From Candidatus Abyssobacteria bacterium SURF_5 (GTDB lineage Bacteria > Abyssobacteria > SURF-5): a stretch of DNA of 37,058 nucleotides. A model generated the notes under the pieces. The model ran no database searches. It was not told the DNA's origin and saw nothing but the letters and a program-made list of their open reading frames with translations. The stretch is taken from NCBI GenBank assembly GCA_003598085.1, contig QZKU01000057.1, positions 1 to 37,058 of the forward strand, read 5' to 3'. Position numbers and translations under genes: made by a program. Positions 3 through 20,779 of this stretch are shown piece by piece (within the stretch, counting starts at the first letter, position 1; the number at the start of each line of letters is the position of its first letter).

Positions 3-950
3 TTTGTTCTTTTGATCTACTCCGGAACGAAACGAAAGAGACGCGAGCTGGCCAAATTTGCGGAGGAGCGGATTCTGCCGCGGCTGGTAATCGGCGTCAG
101 CAGATGGAGAACGAACCTGAAGCACGGCCTGTTCGTCGCCGGCGTTATTTTTCTTCTGCTCGGCCTGCTGGGTCCGCGGTGGGGATTTCATTGGGAGGAC
201 ATCAAACGGCGCGGCGTGGACCTGGTCGTTGTGCTGGACACCTCGGAGAGCATGTTGAGCCAGGACGTCAAGCCGAATCGGCTCGAGCGGGCCAAGCGCG
301 AGATCTATGATCTGGTGAAAATGGTACGGGGAGACCGGTTGGGGCTGGTGGTTTTTTCCGGCGCGGCTTTTGTACAGTGTCCCCTGACGCTGGATTACGG
401 AGCGTTCCTCATGTTTCTCGATTACATTGATACGACCATTGTCCCGCAAAAAGGCACGAATCTGGGTGAGGCGCTCCAGGTGGCGACGGGTTCGTTTGAT
501 GAACAGAAACGCAGTTCCAAGGCGATCATCCTGATCTCCGACGGCGGCAACCTGCAGGGCGACCCGAAGGCGGCGGCAAAAATGGCCAAAGAAAAAGGCG
601 TCAGAATTTACACGATCGGGATCGGCCGTGAAGACGAAGAATCGCCGATCCCGGTGAGCAGCGGGTTCAAATACAGCGAAGGCAGAATGGTAACCACGAA
701 ACTGGAGGACGAAATGCTCCAGGAGATCGCTCTCTCTACGGGAGGCGCCTATGTGCGCTCGGTAACCGGAGACATCGATCTCGAGAAGATATATTATGAG
801 GAAATCAACCAGAAAATGGAAAAGCGCGAACTTCAGGGGGCGCGAGCGAAGCGGTGGGAGGAGCGCTTCCAATGGCCGTTGTGGGTGGCGACGCTGCTCC
901 TGGCGCTCGAGATTGTGGTGGCGGAGAGACAACGTCATGCGACTGATTAG
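3..950 (+). CDS. batB: BatB-like von Willebrand factor A membrane protein, 5' partial
   Basis: The reading frame is open back to the left edge, so the true start lies upstream; the first possible start inside the window is a TTG at 12. Counting from that TTG, a membrane segment covers about residues 38-55. A VWA domain follows, with the MIDAS motif D-T-S-E-S at about 76-80 and the supporting Ser-Asp-Gly-Gly near 175. A second membrane segment lies at about 289-306. This layout (TM, VWA, C-terminal TM) is that of the BatA/BatB proteins of the aerotolerance operon, which display a metal-binding VWA domain outside the inner membrane. BatB rather than BatA is inferred because a BatC-like TPR gene follows directly, overlapping by 14 bases. 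The biochemical role of Bat proteins is not settled. Confidence 0.85.
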   Translation, partial: FVLLIYSGTKRKRRELAKFAEERILPRLVIGVSRWRTNLKHGLFVAGVIFLLLGLLGPRWGFHWEDIKRRGVDLVVVLDTSESMLSQDVKPNRLERAKREIYDLVKMVRGDRLGLVVFSGAAFVQCPLTLDYGAFLMFLDYIDTTIVPQKGTNLGEALQVATGSFDEQKRSSKAIILISDGGNLQGDPKAAAKMAKEKGVRIYTIGIGREDEESPIPVSSGFKYSEGRMVTTKLEDEMLQEIALSTGGAYVRSVTGDIDLEKIYYEEINQKMEKRELQGARAKRWEERFQWPLWVATLLLALEIVVAERQRHATD

Positions 951-1740
951 AATCTCTCTTTGTTTTTTTCTGCTTCTCCTTTCCATGAATTCCGCATCCG
1001 CGGAGAGCCTGGCGAGCAAAGTGCGCCGGGCAAATTCCTTTTTCAGAGACGGGAAATATCAGGATGCCCTGAAAAAATATCAGGAGGCGCAGGTCGAGGC
1101 GCCCGCCGACGAACGGGTGATGTTCAATCTGGGCAACGCACAATACAAGTTGAATGAGAGCGAACGAGCGCTGTCGGAATATCTGCAGGCCGCGCAGACG
1201 GAAGACCCGAAGCTGCGGGCGCAGAGCAACTATAATGCCGGCAACGCTCTTTACCGGATGGGAAAACTCGAGGAAGCGGTTCAGCAGTATCTCAAAGCCC
1301 TCGAAGACAATCCCGAAGATGAGGACGCCAAGTACAACATGGAATTCGTGCGTCGCGAAATCCGCCGCCGCATGGAGCAACAACAGCAGCGGGAGCAGGA
1401 TCAGGAGCAGCAGTCCCGAAGCCAGGAGAATAAAAAGCAGGAGAACTCGTCAAACCAGCAAGATCAGCAGAACGAGAATGAACAGCAGCAGAAGCAGGAA
1501 AAGCAGCAGAATGAGAATCAGCAGGAACAGCAATCTTCTCCCCAAGGGTCCCCGGAGTCGCAAGACGCCGAATCTCGTGCCGGAGAACAAGCTTCAACGG
1601 CCGCGGTCGCCGAGGCAATGAGCAAAGAAAACGTCGAGCGCTACCTTGAGGCTATCGAAGCCGAAAGCGCTCAGAACATGAAGGAATTCCTCAGGCGGCG
1701 ATATCATGGCGAAGTCGTGGCCAATCCTGAAGACTGGTGA
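937..1740 (+). CDS. batC: BatC-like TPR protein with Gln-rich tail
   Basis: A 267-residue secreted or periplasmic protein. I chose the ATG at 937 over an upstream in-frame start because it places a signal peptide (residues 1-22, ending A-S-A) at the N terminus and has a GGAGAG ribosome site just upstream. TPR helices run from about 26 to 130, with the typical N-x-G-N-A-x-Y-x-x-G spacing seen twice. Residues 147-205 are extremely rich in Gln, Glu, Asn and Lys, a low-complexity linker common in Bat-operon TPR proteins. The C-terminal 60 residues look helical again. It overlaps batB and is joined by a GTGA overlap to the next frame. It probably scaffolds the Bat complex; that role is inferred from the family. 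Confidence 0.8.
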   Translation: MRLIRISLCFFLLLLSMNSASAESLASKVRRANSFFRDGKYQDALKKYQEAQVEAPADERVMFNLGNAQYKLNESERALSEYLQAAQTEDPKLRAQSNYNAGNALYRMGKLEEAVQQYLKALEDNPEDEDAKYNMEFVRREIRRRMEQQQQREQDQEQQSRSQENKKQENSSNQQDQQNENEQQQKQEKQQNENQQEQQSSPQGSPESQDAESRAGEQASTAAVAEAMSKENVERYLEAIEAESAQNMKEFLRRRYHGEVVANPEDW

Positions 1741-1859
1741 GCGAGGACGGCGCGGCGCCGATTAACGAGGCGGCATTGCTTGGAAGACCAGTGAAGGATC
1801 AAGATATGAGGGTCAGCGATACAGGAGTATCTGGAAAATCGGGAGGACTGACATCTGCA

Positions 1860-3728
1860 ATGTGGCGCACACTTGTTTCCGGAGCAAATCGACGAATGCG
1901 CGGCTTTCTTCTTGCAGTCCTGGTGCCGGCGGCCATCAATTTTTCCCCCTCCCCGATAGTGCGCGATGTCGTCGCCGAACCGGCGGTGACGCTGCAACTC
2001 GGTACTTCTCAGGCCGAGATCGGCGATCGTATTCCTTTAAGAATAGTCGTTGAAGGCAAGAACGACTTCAGCGAACCTATCTTGCCGCCTGTCAGCGGGC
2101 TCGAGATCGTTTTCCAGGGGCGCGCCCAAAGCGTTCAGATAGTGAACATGCAGGTGAACTCGTCGAAAATCTTCAATTACATAATCATTCCTCAGCAGGT
2201 GGGCGATTACACGCTGGGCCCCGCGCACGTGGAGTATGCGGGCGCAAGCGTGACAAGCAATTCGGCCAGCCTGAAAGTGGCCGCGTCGAACGGAACGCGT
2301 CCGGCGTCAAAGAAAGAAAGGGGCGTTCTGATCGAGGCGAGCGTCGATAATGATAAGCCTTACCTGGGGCAGCAGGTTACGCTGCTGTTCCGTTTCGCCA
2401 GAACGGCCGGCGCCCGCATCCGCAATGCAGGATATGAGCTGCCCGACCTATCCTCGTTCTGGAGCGAGGGAGTCGAGAGCAGGCGGGAATACGCTCAAAA
2501 TATAAATGGTCTGGACTATCTCGTGACTGAGATAGCGATTCCGCTGTTCCCCGTCAAGGAAGGAGAGCTGACGATCGGACCGGTCGTGTTGCGGTACGAT
2601 GAAGTTGTTGCGAGCCGGAGCGAGCCTCAGTCTTCCTCATTTCAGGATCCGTTCGGGAGAAGCGTCTTCGATGACGACTTCTTCAAGATGTTCCGATCGG
2701 AAAATATCGTGAAGCGGACGGCCCAAACCGGCCCGATTACCGTTCACGTGAGACCAATTCCGTCGCAGGACCGGCCGGAGGAATACGGGGGAGGCGTCGG
2801 CAAGTTCAGCATGATGGCCAGATTGAGCAGCGACCAGGTGAAGGTGGGCGAATCAATCACACTCACGCTCTCGTTGAGCGGCGAAGGCAATATCAGGGAC
2901 CTTGCCGACCCGAAAGTCGAAATGAAGGACGTCAAGATATATTCGGACAACCCTGCGGTCACCGTCAAGAATTATCACGAAAAAATCGTCGGCGAAAAAG
3001 TATATAAATTTGCGCTGGTACCGCAACAGGCGGGGCGACTGCAGATCCCGGAGATCGCGATCCCCTACTACAATCCCGAATCGGAGCGGTTCGAGTTTGC
3101 ATCGTCTACCATGCTGGAAGTGGAGGTGCTGCCCGCGGAAAAGGAAACGCTGGTGCTCAAAAAAGCAGACGGCTCCGGAAAAAGTCCTGCAGCATCCGCC
3201 TTGGATGACCTCCTCCCGATTCATGAGCGGATCGGCCAGATGCAAAGCAGCCAACTGGGGGTCTGGCTCCGCCGCATCAGGCCGCTGGCATATCCCCTGC
3301 CGATCCTCGTGTATGCCTTCTGCTTTGTCTACGCCAGGCGGCGGGAGCGTCTCAGGACCGATGTCGCGTACCGGCGCCTGAAGTTCGCCTCCAGAACCGC
3401 AGAGGCATATCTTGCGGATGCAGAAGACTCATTCAACCGAAAGGATTTCAAAACCGTTTTCTCCAAAACGGCGAAAGCGGTCTCCGAATACATCGCCGCC
3501 AAACTGAATATCGCTTCAGCCGGATTGACGCCCGTCGAGATTGAGGAGCTTCTGACGGCTCGCGGCGCGCAACCGGAAGTGGTAAGCGAGCTGAGGGAAT
3601 TTCTGGATTTCTGCGATTACGGGCGCTTTACGTCTTCGAGGAAAAGCTCGAACGCCGCCCGCGACTGCATGGCGAGGGCGCGCCGGCTACTTGAGCGCCT
3701 CGAGGATGAGGAGGGTATCGGCCGATGA
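1860..3728 (+). CDS. batD: BatD-like oxygen-tolerance protein
   Basis: About 622 residues, matching the BatD family: beta-rich extracytoplasmic domains, one membrane segment near the C terminus (about residues 473-493) flanked by an Arg-rich stretch, and a short helical cytoplasmic tail. The start is ambiguous. The frame opens with a GTG at 1737 that overlaps the batC stop, but a signal peptide only begins further in. The ATG at 1860 follows GGGAGG at 1841-1846 and gives a basic n-region, a hydrophobic core and an A-x-A-like site; the ATG at 1896 is also possible. The gene is joined to batE by an ATGA overlap. Family knowledge puts BatD with BatA/B/C/E in an envelope complex linked to stress tolerance. 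Confidence 0.8.
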   Translation: MWRTLVSGANRRMRGFLLAVLVPAAINFSPSPIVRDVVAEPAVTLQLGTSQAEIGDRIPLRIVVEGKNDFSEPILPPVSGLEIVFQGRAQSVQIVNMQVNSSKIFNYIIIPQQVGDYTLGPAHVEYAGASVTSNSASLKVAASNGTRPASKKERGVLIEASVDNDKPYLGQQVTLLFRFARTAGARIRNAGYELPDLSSFWSEGVESRREYAQNINGLDYLVTEIAIPLFPVKEGELTIGPVVLRYDEVVASRSEPQSSSFQDPFGRSVFDDDFFKMFRSENIVKRTAQTGPITVHVRPIPSQDRPEEYGGGVGKFSMMARLSSDQVKVGESITLTLSLSGEGNIRDLADPKVEMKDVKIYSDNPAVTVKNYHEKIVGEKVYKFALVPQQAGRLQIPEIAIPYYNPESERFEFASSTMLEVEVLPAEKETLVLKKADGSGKSPAASALDDLLPIHERIGQMQSSQLGVWLRRIRPLAYPLPILVYAFCFVYARRRERLRTDVAYRRLKFASRTAEAYLADAEDSFNRKDFKTVFSKTAKAVSEYIAAKLNIASAGLTPVEIEELLTARGAQPEVVSELREFLDFCDYGRFTSSRKSSNAARDCMARARRLLERLEDEEGIGR

Positions 3729-4531
3729 AGCTGAATCTGCATGCAAATCCTGCTCAAACGGCAGTTGCCCTTTTGCTGAGCCTCCTCGCAATCTGTTCAC
3801 TGGCGCAGGGCGAGATCCCGGAGGACGCCCTCTTGCCGGAACGGCAGGTAAACGAGATCTTTGACATTGCCAACGAAGAATACAAGGCAGGAAATTACGA
3901 GAACGCCGTTAGCATGTACGAAGGGATATTGTCGACCTTCGCGATACGCAACGCGGACATTCACTACAACATGGGAAACGCCCACTTCAAACTGGGGCAC
4001 TATGGGAAAGCGATCGCTTCGTACCGGAGGGCGCTCCAGATATCGCCGCGGGAGCAGGATATCCTTGCGAACCTGCGCCTCGCGCGCAACATGGCGAGGG
4101 ACAAGCTGGACAGTCCCAAGAGCACCGAGTTGCTGCGCGAAATCTTCTTCTTTCACTATGAATTTAGTAAAATGGAATCGGAATGCATCTTTCTTATTAT
4201 GTATTGTGTCGGGGTTCTGGCCGGCGTCGTCGCCCTCTTAAAGAAATCCAGGGCCGCTCGCTGGACCGCATTCGGAGCGCTGGCCGTGATGGTGGTTTTC
4301 GGATTATCCAGCCTTGTCCACACCTACCGACAGGCGCGCCCGTCCGAAGCAGTGGTCATTGCAGCCGAAGCAGGCGTCCGCACGGGCCCGGGCGAAACGT
4401 ACCTGGTCTCTTTTTCGCTTCACGACGGCGCGGAGCTTGAAATCAGCAAGACACTGGACGGCTGGCATCAAATCGAACTGTCCGACGGACGGCGCGGATG
4501 GATCAAAGACGCGGACATGGAAATCATATGA
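3725..4531 (+). CDS. batE: BatE-like TPR and SH3-domain membrane protein
   Basis: 268 residues. A signal peptide or N-terminal anchor covers about 1-29 and TPR repeats about 40-125 (N-x-G-N-A-x-F-K-L-G-x-Y). Two membrane segments lie at about 153-172 and 180-198. A bacterial SH3 domain fills 208-268, with the usual G-V-R-x-G-P-G and G-W-I features. This TPR-TM-TM-SH3 order is typical of BatE. The ATG overlaps the batD stop in an ATGA, so translation is probably coupled. SH3 domains of this kind often bind cell-wall material, which would place the C terminus in the periplasm; that is inference. Confidence 0.8.
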   Translation: MKLNLHANPAQTAVALLLSLLAICSLAQGEIPEDALLPERQVNEIFDIANEEYKAGNYENAVSMYEGILSTFAIRNADIHYNMGNAHFKLGHYGKAIASYRRALQISPREQDILANLRLARNMARDKLDSPKSTELLREIFFFHYEFSKMESECIFLIMYCVGVLAGVVALLKKSRAARWTAFGALAVMVVFGLSSLVHTYRQARPSEAVVIAAEAGVRTGPGETYLVSFSLHDGAELEISKTLDGWHQIELSDGRRGWIKDADMEII

Positions 4532-14881: not shown

Positions 14882-16823
<1,942 letters not shown>

Positions 16824-17134: not shown

Positions 17135-17169
17135 AAAAAAGGAGGCAAAGATTAAGTCTTTGCCCCTTT
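17135..17169 (-). terminator. Intrinsic terminator of the large repeat-protein gene
   Basis: On the minus strand, GGCAAAG and CTTTGCC form a 7-bp stem around a 7-base loop, extended by a few pairs past one mismatch, and are followed by TCC and six T. It lies about 240 bases past the stop of the repeat-protein gene and before the groESL promoter region, so it would isolate groESL from that transcript. Confidence 0.6.
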
Positions 17170-17406: not shown

Positions 17407-20400
17407 TCAGTCATTTGCGGATTGGCCCTCTTCCTCGTCCTTGACCCGCGCGCTCAGGGCCATTGAGAGACCCTTTCGAAGTGCTTCCTCGGCAGCCTTA
17501 TTGTTCCCCTGGAGGAGGTGATTCTGAGCTATCTTCATGTAATCGGCCGCGAGATTTCCGGCACGTTCCATGCCGGCTTTGCCGAGCATAACGGCATCGG
17601 AAGCCTTTACGAAGGCATCGGCGGCGGCTTCGATGGCGCGATCATAATCATGTTCGCTCAAATATGTGCAGGCGATCTCGTCGAACGAGCGAGCGGCAGT
17701 CAGGACGTCCGGGCAAACTCTGCCGGAATGAAGCACTTGCGCCAGCGCAATCTGATCCTGCGCTTTTTGAATTTCGTGCTGGGCCCGCTCGCGCAGTTCG
17801 AAGCGTTTCTGCTTTACGCGTTCCTGCACCGCTGAGGCCATTGAATGAAGAAGCTCGATGTGGTTTGCAAGAAGCCGGAGGTTTTTCCGCTCGATGATTT
17901 CTGTCGTTTCTTCTGCAAGTTCCGACAGATTCTGGAATTCATCGGGCGCGAACTGCGAAGATGCGGGATCGGAAAGGACAGCCTTATGGAGAGCATCGCC
18001 GGCGTGTAGCGAAGCGGTAAGTTGTTTCCAGCGCTGTTTGTTCTCCTCGGATTCCTCACGTAGCCGCGCGATTATGGCCATGGTTTGCCGGACCAGATCG
18101 AAACTGCCGTCCATATCCCCCTCGATTATGGAATTATCCGCCTGATCCAAAAATGAGCGAGCCTCATCGAGAAGGAGCGAGCCTTCCATAACGAAATCAA
18201 GCTTGGCGCAGGCTTCGACTTCGCTGCGGGCTGCTTGCATTTTCAGGCGGAGCTGGCGCAGGTCTTCTTCGCGCTCCTTCTCGAACCGCTCGCGCAGGAA
18301 TTCGACCTGCCACAATTTTGCGCGGGCGACAGCGAGATCTTTCCGCAGTTCGATCTCCGCCCCGGCGCGCAGCGCGTCGGGCCCGCCGGAAAGCTCGCCC
18401 CATAAGCGCTTGATGTCGAGATACACGCTTTCGAGCGCGTCCGGCGCATAGTAGCCGGAGCATTTTTCCACGGCCCGCTTGACCGCCTGCTCGATCTCAC
18501 TCAGCTCTGCCGTGATCTCACGATGCAATTCTTCCTGTTCCAAGGAGACGCTGGCTTGTATGTCATCCAGCAATTCCCGGAGCGAATCCTCCCGCACCTG
18601 CAAGCTCTCCGGTTCACGCGAGGCAAGGCCGGAAATGAGTTCAGTCAGTTTCGAATAAAGCGCCTCGACGCGATCGGGGCAGCGATAGCAGGTTTCCAGA
18701 GAAACGAGCGCTGCAGCCTTTTCGAGAAGCGCAGCCGCTTCCAGCACAAGATTCGACCATTCTTCGCGCACGCGGCTCTGCGGCTCAATGACATTCATGC
18801 GAAGGCGCTCGATGGCCTCGTCAGCGCATTTTTCGGCTTCCTGTGCATTGCCTTCGAGCAAATATTTCCTGGCGTGTTCGATGAGCATGCCGGCCTGCAC
18901 GAAAGCCGGAGCGACATCGGCGTCAATCCCCGAGGCCGCGGCCGAAGTGAGCAGACTGGCCGCAGTGGAAACGATCGCCTCGATATCTTTCAGTTGGTCG
19001 GTCGCCTCGACATATGATTTTTCAACGTCCGCGATCAGGCGCTCACATTCAGAGATCGCGGCCGAAAGGGCATCGCGGTCGCGGCTGCACAGCGAGGCGA
19101 TCATGTTGCGCTCGGCATGGAGCAGCGGCTCAACCTTGCCAGGATTCACCTTCAGCATCAGTGGGAGATTGAGTGCGCGTATCTTTGCGGAAGACTCGTC
19201 CGCCCGAAGAAAAAGGTCGTTCCATCGGCGCTCGGATTCGGCGATTGCCGGAATGATTTCCTCTCGAAGCAAACGCGCGGTTTCCTCGGCCAGTGAAATG
19301 CCCTTTTCCTGCCGGCCATCTTCAAAACAGGTTTTGGCCTCGGCAATCGCATCCTTGGCCTGAAGCAGCTCCCCCATTGCCTCCTGTGCGAAAGAGCGCG
19401 TCATGGCCTCGTCGAGGACGGCTGAGGCCGCGCGGATGGATTCGCGCAGCCTGATCGTCAACTGCTTTGCCTCTTCGGTCACCCGAAGCGCACTTGCTTC
19501 GGCTTCGATCGCCTTGCTTTCGGCTGACGAGAGGAAATCGCGTACTTCATCCCATCGAGTGCGGCGGGCGCTGGTTTCGGCCCGGTCAAGAAAATTGTAA
19601 GCCTCCTTGAGCGCCTCGGGCGCATGTTCTTTCGCGCCGGCCTTGCGCGCGCGCATGATTACCTGCCGCACCTGCGCGAGCGAAGCCATCACTTCCTCCC
19701 GGCCTTTGCTGCGCTGGGGCGAGAGCAGACTGACGCGCTCGGTGATGATGGCGCCCTGATCGAGAAGGTATCGGAGACGGTCCACGTTGCGGTCGTTGAG
19801 GCAGGGGATCAATTCCTCCCGGATTTCACGAAGCTCGCCGAATTCGAGCGGAGCGTATTCGGGGGCGCCTTCTTCCTCGAGCGCATTTACCTTTGCCCGC
19901 AACGACTTCACCTGTTGCACCAGTTTATCCCACTCTTTTTCGACGCTGTCGGCCTTCTCTGTCGCCTGTTTCAGAAGCTGGACCGCCTGTGACGCCATCT
20001 GAACGGCTTCTTCGTCGAAACCGGAATCCATGAACTTGCGGGCGTCGCCCAGTTTCTTCTTGGCTTCCTCAACCGGGACAGCGACCGCGCGATGGAACGG
20101 GTGCGAACGAGCCCCGATGAGAGCGGTCTGCCCGATATCGTATAATTCCTCGAATTCCGTCCGGAGCCCCGTTTCCGACATCTCCGATTTCAGCGATTTG
20201 ATGATCGAAGAAAAGCTGCCGCGCCCGAAACCGGGCGTGGGGGACGAGGTGTAATATTTCAGCAGCATTTCCTTTAGATTGGCATCGCCGCAGAAATCGA
20301 TATGCACCTTCCTGCCCGTCATCTCTTCGAGGCGGGCGAGCAGTTCCTCATAGGTGTGGCGTTCGAAGGGAGCGGCCGTGAGAACATCGAGGGTTTCTTC

Positions 20401-20688
20401 GGCGAGTTGATACGGCAGCACTTGCAGTTCCAGCGCCGCCTCGGACGGAAGCGCGCTTATGACGGCTTCCGGTATCTGCCGCGGAACCGCCGGAAGAAAG
20501 GCGCCGCCGTACATTTCGGCATAAATCGCGCCGAGGTTGTCGCGTGAAACGTATCCGAGTCTGAACAGTGTCTCCTCAAGCGAAAGGTTGCGCCCTCTTG
20601 CCTTCTGGAGCACTTCTTCGAGTTCCTGCTCTGAGAGAATATTTTTCTGGACGAGGACGTCCCCAAGGGGTTTGTAGGTCTGCGTCAT
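17407..20688 (-). CDS. Large MshEN-domain protein with about eleven 78-residue helical repeats
   Basis: 1093 residues, no signal peptide, no membrane helix. Residues 5-150 resemble the N-terminal domain of GspE/PilB/MshE ATPases (MshEN, which binds c-di-GMP in MshE): P-L-G-D-V-L-V then L-S-E-Q-E-L, a second copy ending R-L-G-Y-V-S-R-D-N-L, then I-P-E-A-V-I and L-P-Y-Q. The first half-site lacks the usual Arg-Leu-Gly and its Gly is Asn16, so ligand binding is doubtful. No Walker motif follows. From about 200 to the end the protein is helical, with a recurring F/Y/C-A-P-D/E motif whose Pro position is at 205, 280, 357, 435, 516, 594, 671, 749, 834, 915 and 993 (Q or M in two units). This spacing is 75-85, mostly 77-78. 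W-x-x-L recurs about 50 residues after the motif in units 1, 4, 6 and 9. Function unknown; a cytoplasmic scaffold is my inference. It is a single-gene unit with its own promoter and terminator. Confidence 0.85.
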   Translation of the reverse strand: MTQTYKPLGDVLVQKNILSEQELEEVLQKARGRNLSLEETLFRLGYVSRDNLGAIYAEMYGGAFLPAVPRQIPEAVISALPSEAALELQVLPYQLAEETLDVLTAAPFERHTYEELLARLEEMTGRKVHIDFCGDANLKEMLLKYYTSSPTPGFGRGSFSSIIKSLKSEMSETGLRTEFEELYDIGQTALIGARSHPFHRAVAVPVEEAKKKLGDARKFMDSGFDEEAVQMASQAVQLLKQATEKADSVEKEWDKLVQQVKSLRAKVNALEEEGAPEYAPLEFGELREIREELIPCLNDRNVDRLRYLLDQGAIITERVSLLSPQRSKGREEVMASLAQVRQVIMRARKAGAKEHAPEALKEAYNFLDRAETSARRTRWDEVRDFLSSAESKAIEAEASALRVTEEAKQLTIRLRESIRAASAVLDEAMTRSFAQEAMGELLQAKDAIAEAKTCFEDGRQEKGISLAEETARLLREEIIPAIAESERRWNDLFLRADESSAKIRALNLPLMLKVNPGKVEPLLHAERNMIASLCSRDRDALSAAISECERLIADVEKSYVEATDQLKDIEAIVSTAASLLTSAAASGIDADVAPAFVQAGMLIEHARKYLLEGNAQEAEKCADEAIERLRMNVIEPQSRVREEWSNLVLEAAALLEKAAALVSLETCYRCPDRVEALYSKLTELISGLASREPESLQVREDSLRELLDDIQASVSLEQEELHREITAELSEIEQAVKRAVEKCSGYYAPDALESVYLDIKRLWGELSGGPDALRAGAEIELRKDLAVARAKLWQVEFLRERFEKEREEDLRQLRLKMQAARSEVEACAKLDFVMEGSLLLDEARSFLDQADNSIIEGDMDGSFDLVRQTMAIIARLREESEENKQRWKQLTASLHAGDALHKAVLSDPASSQFAPDEFQNLSELAEETTEIIERKNLRLLANHIELLHSMASAVQERVKQKRFELRERAQHEIQKAQDQIALAQVLHSGRVCPDVLTAARSFDEIACTYLSEHDYDRAIEAAADAFVKASDAVMLGKAGMERAGNLAADYMKIAQNHLLQGNNKAAEEALRKGLSMALSARVKDEEEGQSAND

Positions 20689-20716
20689 TGAAATGCTCCT
20701 GTGGAGGGTCCCGATG

Positions 20717-20750: not shown

Positions 20751-20779
20751 ATTATAGTTGAAGCATGCCCAAAATTCAA
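20751..20779 (-). promoter_or_regulatory. Sigma-70 promoter of the repeat-protein gene
   Basis: On the minus strand TTGAAT and a perfect TATAAT are separated by 17 bases, near consensus. Transcription would begin near 20744, giving a leader of about 55 bases that contains a hairpin and the AGGAG ribosome site before the ATG at 20688. Confidence 0.8.

Follow-up and report, generated by a model that had tools for sequence, protein, structure and literature searches.

Introduction

The consensus for c-di-GMP binding by MshEN domains is RLGxx(hh)xxG(hh)xxxxLxxxLxxQ, which occurs twice with a five-residue spacer (Wang et al. 2016, PMC5013675). Certain motifs that depart from it retain binding (PMC5013675, PMC11731258), while binding has been lost in the MshEN relative XpsE (PMC5013675) and is not seen in the GSPII-A domain of PilF (PMC11731258, PMC12002112). 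The N domain of X. citri PilB, from which the motif is missing, binds PilZ, and that of GspE/EpsE binds GspL/EpsL (PMC8389850). EzrA, which binds FtsZ, has the topology of spectrins, with three-helix bundles in series and the third helix continuing into the first helix of the next unit; in 2014, it was the sole cytoplasmic spectrin-like bacterial protein known to its authors (PMC4243239). Here, we describe a lineage-restricted protein (the MshEN-rod protein) in which known modules are combined into a new domain architecture whose spectrin-like layout is rare.

The gene and its orthologs

The window, meaning the whole 37,058-nt stretch of DNA that was analyzed, is one contig of a 5.1 Mb genome (98% complete) from Candidatus Abyssobacteria, a little-known lineage of the deep subsurface that stands under Hydrogenedentota in the NCBI taxonomy. 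The gene has an AGGAG ribosome site 7 nt upstream of its ATG and appears monocistronic:

17407..20688, minus strand: MshEN-rod gene, 1093 aa, ATG start (ORF and AGGAG at 20696-20700)
20751..20779, minus strand: promoter-like TTGAAT-17-TATAAT, ~60 nt upstream of the gene (consensus match only)
17142..17166, minus strand: strong terminator-like 10-pair stem and T run, 3' of the stop (consensus match only)

The 1093-aa ORF is a real gene, since the family's two other genomes each contain a full-length ortholog, and its extent and strand are as given in the initial annotation. One ortholog belongs to SURF_17 (Candidatus Abyssobacteria), the other to a genome labeled Candidatus Poribacteria. They were identified by an alignment-based scan of genome contigs and align end to end with the protein at 46-48% identity with very few gaps; a single-sequence scan of the contigs gave no relatives. 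Both genomes represent other sequenced genera of the same family, and the remaining sampled genomes are related to the window's genome at domain level only. The contig JACRIR010000001.1 (L040) is titled Candidatus Poribacteria yet falls in the family of SURF_17, which is likely a naming problem. No viral relatives were found in a search of viral sequences, and no plasmid relatives were found over the full length of the protein.

The neighbors of the gene in the window are a GroEL-type gene on one side and a tRNA-Arg/SbcCD-like pair on the other. In SURF_17, it is flanked by a DUF169 gene and, beyond one small unannotated ORF, by a gene for an HtrA-type protease. Because the flanking genes are not the same between genomes, an operon reading was dropped and the neighborhood gives no function. 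No pil or gsp genes adjoin the gene in the window or at the SURF_17 locus, and an Rfam scan nearby returned tRNA-Arg only. Two other regions of the window are recorded here: the GroEL homolog (14882-16615, minus strand) has a ~34-residue N-terminal extension in its longest reading, for which an internal start may be the true one, and BatC/BatD-like TPR and BatD-domain genes (796-4531, plus strand) stand immediately ahead of glnD and a gene for an HtrA/DegP-type protease.

The N-terminal domain

Residues 1-150 are an MshEN/GSPII domain according to Pfam, NCBIfam and PDB profile searches alike. PF05157 matches residues 70-129 (23.9 bits, cut-off 23.1) and NF053729, the MshE-related c-di-GMP domain, residues 7-56 (38.3 bits, cut-off 38); MshEN profiles match 3/3 orthologs (best E 7e-11), and PDB profile matches to MshE (5htl, E 7e-14) and PilF GSPII-A (9g1w, E 2e-13) reach residue 148. 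Behind the domain, Pfam and NCBIfam detect neither T2SSE (PF00437) nor any other ATPase domain, which bears out the initial description of a GspE/MshE-type head of 150 residues with no ATPase.

20512..20670, minus strand: MshEN_N subdomain, residues 7-59, with two degenerate 24-residue motifs 5 residues apart, PLG..A and SLE..M (NF053729 and motif checks)
20239..20511, minus strand: MshEN_C subdomain, residues 60-150 (PF05157 and PDB profile matches)
20167..20238, minus strand: variable low-confidence linker, residues 151-174 (pLDDT <50 at 145-173; 28% invariant over 151-175)

The two motifs, PLGDVLVQKNILSEQELEEVLQKA and SLEETLFRLGYVSRDNLGAIYAEM, keep the five-residue spacer, and the strict c-di-GMP motif is absent at both positions. 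It is unlikely, though to be taken seriously, that we are dealing with a c-di-GMP receptor scaffold whose residues 1-150 bind through a relaxed motif and switch the contacts of the rod. The published relaxed pattern is present in the first motif of one ortholog only, NF053729 scores just above its cut-off, the altered motifs cited above still bind and the genome encodes six GGDEF proteins; against this, both motifs are missing R/K/L at position 1 and Q at position 24 in 3/3 orthologs, and the second has Glu for Gly, the residue whose backbone contacts guanine, also in 3/3. Gln is retained in both motifs in 5/8 of the other MshEN proteins scored from the genome and in the first motif only in 2/8, and the motif score of the MshEN-rod protein is the lowest among them, tied with that of protein L008. 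Since the motif ends are lost in all three orthologs, we doubt that the domain binds nucleotide and consider protein docking the likelier role. Region 35-54 is among the best conserved stretches (15/20 positions invariant across the three orthologs), which would fit a conserved protein contact.

Reuse of the module is illustrated by this one genome, in which MshEN is joined not only to the rod but also to HDOD, to secretion ATPases, to a DnaA-type ATPase and to a ParA/MinD-like one. The HDOD and ParA/MinD-like fusions (L005 and L006) are 437 and 512 aa long, respectively, and L008 (G000:C68:40810-41064) is a 484-aa MshEN and Bac_DnaA ATPase protein near a T2SSE ATPase gene.

Repeat units of the rod

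Residues 175-1081 carry about eleven units of ~78 residues (mean spacing 79.4), in agreement with the eleven helical units first proposed. Raw autocorrelation peaks at 155, 236, 81 and 78, profile self-alignment is significant (E 4e-12), both consistent with the period near 78 that had been expected, and an iterated unit HMM recovers 10 full units in each of the 3 orthologs.

19918..20139, minus strand: unit 1, residues 184-257 (unit HMM, leave-one-out)
19687..19917, minus strand: unit 2, residues 258-334 (unit HMM, leave-one-out, AF2 of units 2-4)
19456..19686, minus strand: unit 3, residues 335-411, best DUF4398 match (Pfam, leave-one-out, AF2 of units 2-4)
19210..19443, minus strand: unit 4, residues 416-493 (unit HMM, leave-one-out, AF2 of units 2-4)
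18979..19209, minus strand: unit 5, residues 494-570, degenerate (AF2 model; not above shuffles by sequence)
18745..18978, minus strand: unit 6, residues 571-648 (unit HMM, leave-one-out)
18511..18744, minus strand: unit 7, residues 649-726 (unit HMM, leave-one-out)
18274..18510, minus strand: unit 8, residues 727-805, highly conserved (unit HMM; one ortholog above shuffles; conservation)
18016..18246, minus strand: unit 9, residues 815-891 (unit HMM, leave-one-out)
17779..17997, minus strand: unit 10, residues 898-970, weak by sequence (unit HMM, AF2)
17548..17778, minus strand: unit 11, residues 971-1047, then a TPR-like helical tail (unit HMM, leave-one-out)

Because an HMM necessarily favors the sequences it was built from, we also rescored each unit with a model trained without it, taking 300 shuffles for each sequence (900 total) and the unit's own reverse as controls. 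Units 1-4, 6, 7, 9 and 11 equaled or exceeded the highest of the 900 shuffle scores in one or more orthologs and unit 8 exceeded shuffles in one ortholog only (12.6 versus 10.9), while units 5 and 10 were not above shuffles by sequence in any ortholog. The unit model gives the protein 536 bits, compared with at most 5.2 for other window proteins, an SMC-like one included. A generic coiled-coil or low-complexity artifact without true repeats could draw on the composition of the rod (47% A, E, L and R) and on the weak sequence signal of units 5, 8 and 10, but is already refuted and hardly credible: besides the self-alignment and shuffle results, reversed sequences fail the leave-one-out test, the other proteins of the window, SMC-type included, give no match, and there are DUF4398 matches and regular units in the AF2 model. 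Plain self-BLAST of the protein and a search for tandem repeats in the DNA of the gene showed no repeat; these are ancient repeats, for which profiles are needed. Units of 34 residues typical of TPRs were not found through the rod, where only weak C-terminal TPR matches occur (E 0.0014-0.13).

An F/Y/C-A-P-D/E motif had been assigned to eleven positions, and those positions hold, with AF2 middle-helix starts within 0-6 residues of them. The literal motif does not: exact [FYC]AP[DE] is present in two units only (747 and 913) and is partial (HAPE, YAPL, FAQE, RCPD, VCPD) or absent in the rest. Tryptophan near +50 in four units was also found (+49 to +55).

Predicted structure and conserved patches

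The full-length AF2 model (3-row alignment) has a pLDDT of 73.5 and a pTM of 0.31, with a poor N domain (pLDDT 40-80), and units 2-4 modeled alone reach a pLDDT of 91. Beyond residue 175, the model is 88% helix, with middle helices starting at 199, 280, 357, 434, 516, 593, 671, 749, 838, 915 and 993. It gives a predicted rod of small three-helix bundles joined by continuous helices of ~48 residues (range about 45-54), the long bridging ones being 379-429, 460-504, 538-585, 693-742, 775-828 and 937-985. The third helix of each unit continues as the first of the next except at the junction of units 2 and 3, where a short loop separates helices 302-321 and 326-349. The solenoid or rod of repeated helices anticipated by the initial annotation is supported by the model. 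Very roughly, it would be ~40 nm long if straight (eleven units at ~24 residues each and 1.5 A per residue). We saw no signal peptide and no hydrophobic or transmembrane segment (highest 19-residue hydropathy 1.41), which points to a cytoplasmic protein.

A PDB profile search with the rod alone gave no match, and Foldseek matches of the rod to the PDB were not significant (E 0.05-1.2). Vinculin and talin (full-length Foldseek, E 0.04-0.3, TM about 0.1) were dropped as generic helical matches. Viral tape-measure proteins (viral fold search, E 0.7 or worse) were also dropped. Given Foldseek E values of 0.2-1.2 for EzrA and Borrelia BB0323, we call the rod spectrin-like in layout and not a member of the spectrin fold. 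That it serves as a cytoskeletal or division scaffold, binding a filament protein as EzrA does while the N domain only localizes it, is improbable. The layout is common to FtsZ-binding EzrA (PMC4243239), a PDB match of real coverage; against this, the protein lacks the transmembrane helix of EzrA, its units have 78 rather than ~100 residues, the Foldseek E is 1.2 and no division genes adjoin the gene in the window.

Three patches stand out, in contrast to spacer units with ~20% invariant positions; they are coarse because only three sequences are available:

20080..20139, minus strand: conserved patch A, residues 184-203, DIGQTALIGARSHPFHRAVA (16/20 invariant)
19897..19956, minus strand: conserved patch B, residues 245-264, KADSVEKEWDKLVQQVKSLR (16/20 invariant)
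18280..18339, minus strand: conserved patch C, residues 784-803, DLAVARAKLWQVEFLRERFE (18/20 invariant; 95% of shuffles <=15)

Relation to DUF4398

Judged by sequence, the rod unit is DUF4398-like, at the edge of the Pfam family DUF4398 (PF14346). The initial annotation had recognized no named family with such a layout, which is corrected here because DUF4398 is the best Pfam match, is equal in length and scores on either side of its cut-off. The match is 26.0 bits by hmmscan and 30.9 in a genome search (curated cut-off 27.9) and 35.9 bits for the SURF_17 ortholog, with none to the ortholog in the third genome; across this range of 26-36 bits by ortholog and search, the two share a length of 78 and a GA..YAPE-type core. 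DUF4398 matches occur in 77/386 sampled genomes, mostly in short frames (~100-320 aa) of which the examined ones are mostly exported or OmpA-linked, whereas here about eleven predicted cytoplasmic units follow MshEN. The rod family is present in 3/386 sampled genomes, all of one family, and two other genomes have fragmentary weak matches only.

Long tandem rods matching the Abyssobacteria unit model (39-66 bits; shuffles about 8) are also found in two predicted lipoproteins of ~1100 aa (L078:1927-5238 and L087:733-4035, both minus strand), with DUF4398-like units at ~72-residue spacing and no other Pfam domains found. Unlike the MshEN-rod protein, they have a signal peptide with a lipobox-like cysteine and are without MshEN.

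In another small phylum, proteins L079 and L081 combine MshEN with a DUF4398-like helical segment and Bac_DnaA, so the MshEN/DUF4398-like pairing recurs. These proteins differ from the MshEN-rod protein in their phylum, their length (983 aa) and their P-loop and DnaA ATPase domains. It is very improbable that the MshEN-rod protein is an ATPase-less relative of them, its rod once a linker, that modulates such ATPases: the combination in L079 and L081 and the MshEN-DnaA protein L008 in the window's genome favor this, but in profile comparison only the MshEN domains align (E 2.8e-7) and the rods match barely above shuffles, leaving rod homology not established. The small phylum (G150, G288, G386; L079, L081, L088-L099) has many DnaA-type ATPase domains, those of the MshEN-DnaA proteins and of the 983-aa MshEN, P-loop, DUF4398-like and DnaA protein included, and several cluster on one contig.

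Proposed function

With a likelihood somewhat short of even, based on sequence, model and analogy, we propose that the MshEN-rod protein is a lineage-specific cytoplasmic tether or scaffold with a docking head. The N domain, without its c-di-GMP contacts, would work as a protein-docking head in the manner of the non-binding PilB N domain with PilZ or the GspE domain with GspL, and would attach the protein to an MshEN-type complex, whether of a pilus, a secretion system or another kind. The rod would reach out to further partners held at residues 184-203, 245-264 and 784-803, with the less conserved units as spacers. Of the cytoplasmic c-di-GMP-linked or pilus/secretion-linked scaffold initially suggested, the cytoplasmic location and the scaffold-like rod are supported, a direct c-di-GMP receptor role is not, and the pilus or secretion link would follow from domain type only. 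Candidate partner classes in the genome (PilM_2 in three proteins, nine PilZ matches, the GGDEF proteins and several T2SSE ATPases) provide opportunity only.

More speculatively, and with some doubt on our part, tandem DUF4398 units may be a second, unrecognized family of bacterial spectrin-like rods, forming lipoproteins beyond the cytoplasm and, in the present case, a protein within it, with a GSPII anchor stripped of nucleotide binding, as a ~40-nm tether for a pilus, secretion or signaling complex. In bacteria, a spectrin-like rod in the cytoplasm is a great rarity; one of eleven units with an MshEN-type head would be a further, new architecture, and DUF4398, which has no known function, would gain a testable structural role.

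Comparison with known systems

The N domain has both subdomains of the MshEN/GSPII (T2SSE_N) domains of MshE, PilB, PilF and XpsE, over residues 5-148, and differs from these proteins in having no ATPase behind it. In its degenerate c-di-GMP motif, it resembles XpsE, X. citri PilB and PilF GSPII-A, none of which binds. EzrA and the AF2 model share a cytoplasmic rod of serial three-helix bundles joined by continuous helices, whereas EzrA has five ~100-aa units and a membrane anchor and the rod has a spacing of 79.4 and no transmembrane helix; there is no sequence similarity between them, and the Foldseek match to 4uy3 has a TM of 0.43-0.52 (TMt 0.52) at E 1.2. The best-covered PDB match to units 2-4 is the N-terminal domain of Borrelia BB0323 (6rjx/6rjw; TMt 0.62-0.64, prob 1.0), with E 0.2-0.36, 14-15% identity and no MshEN found in BB0323. 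In layout, the modeled rod comes closest to EzrA of bacteria and BB0323 of Borrelia.
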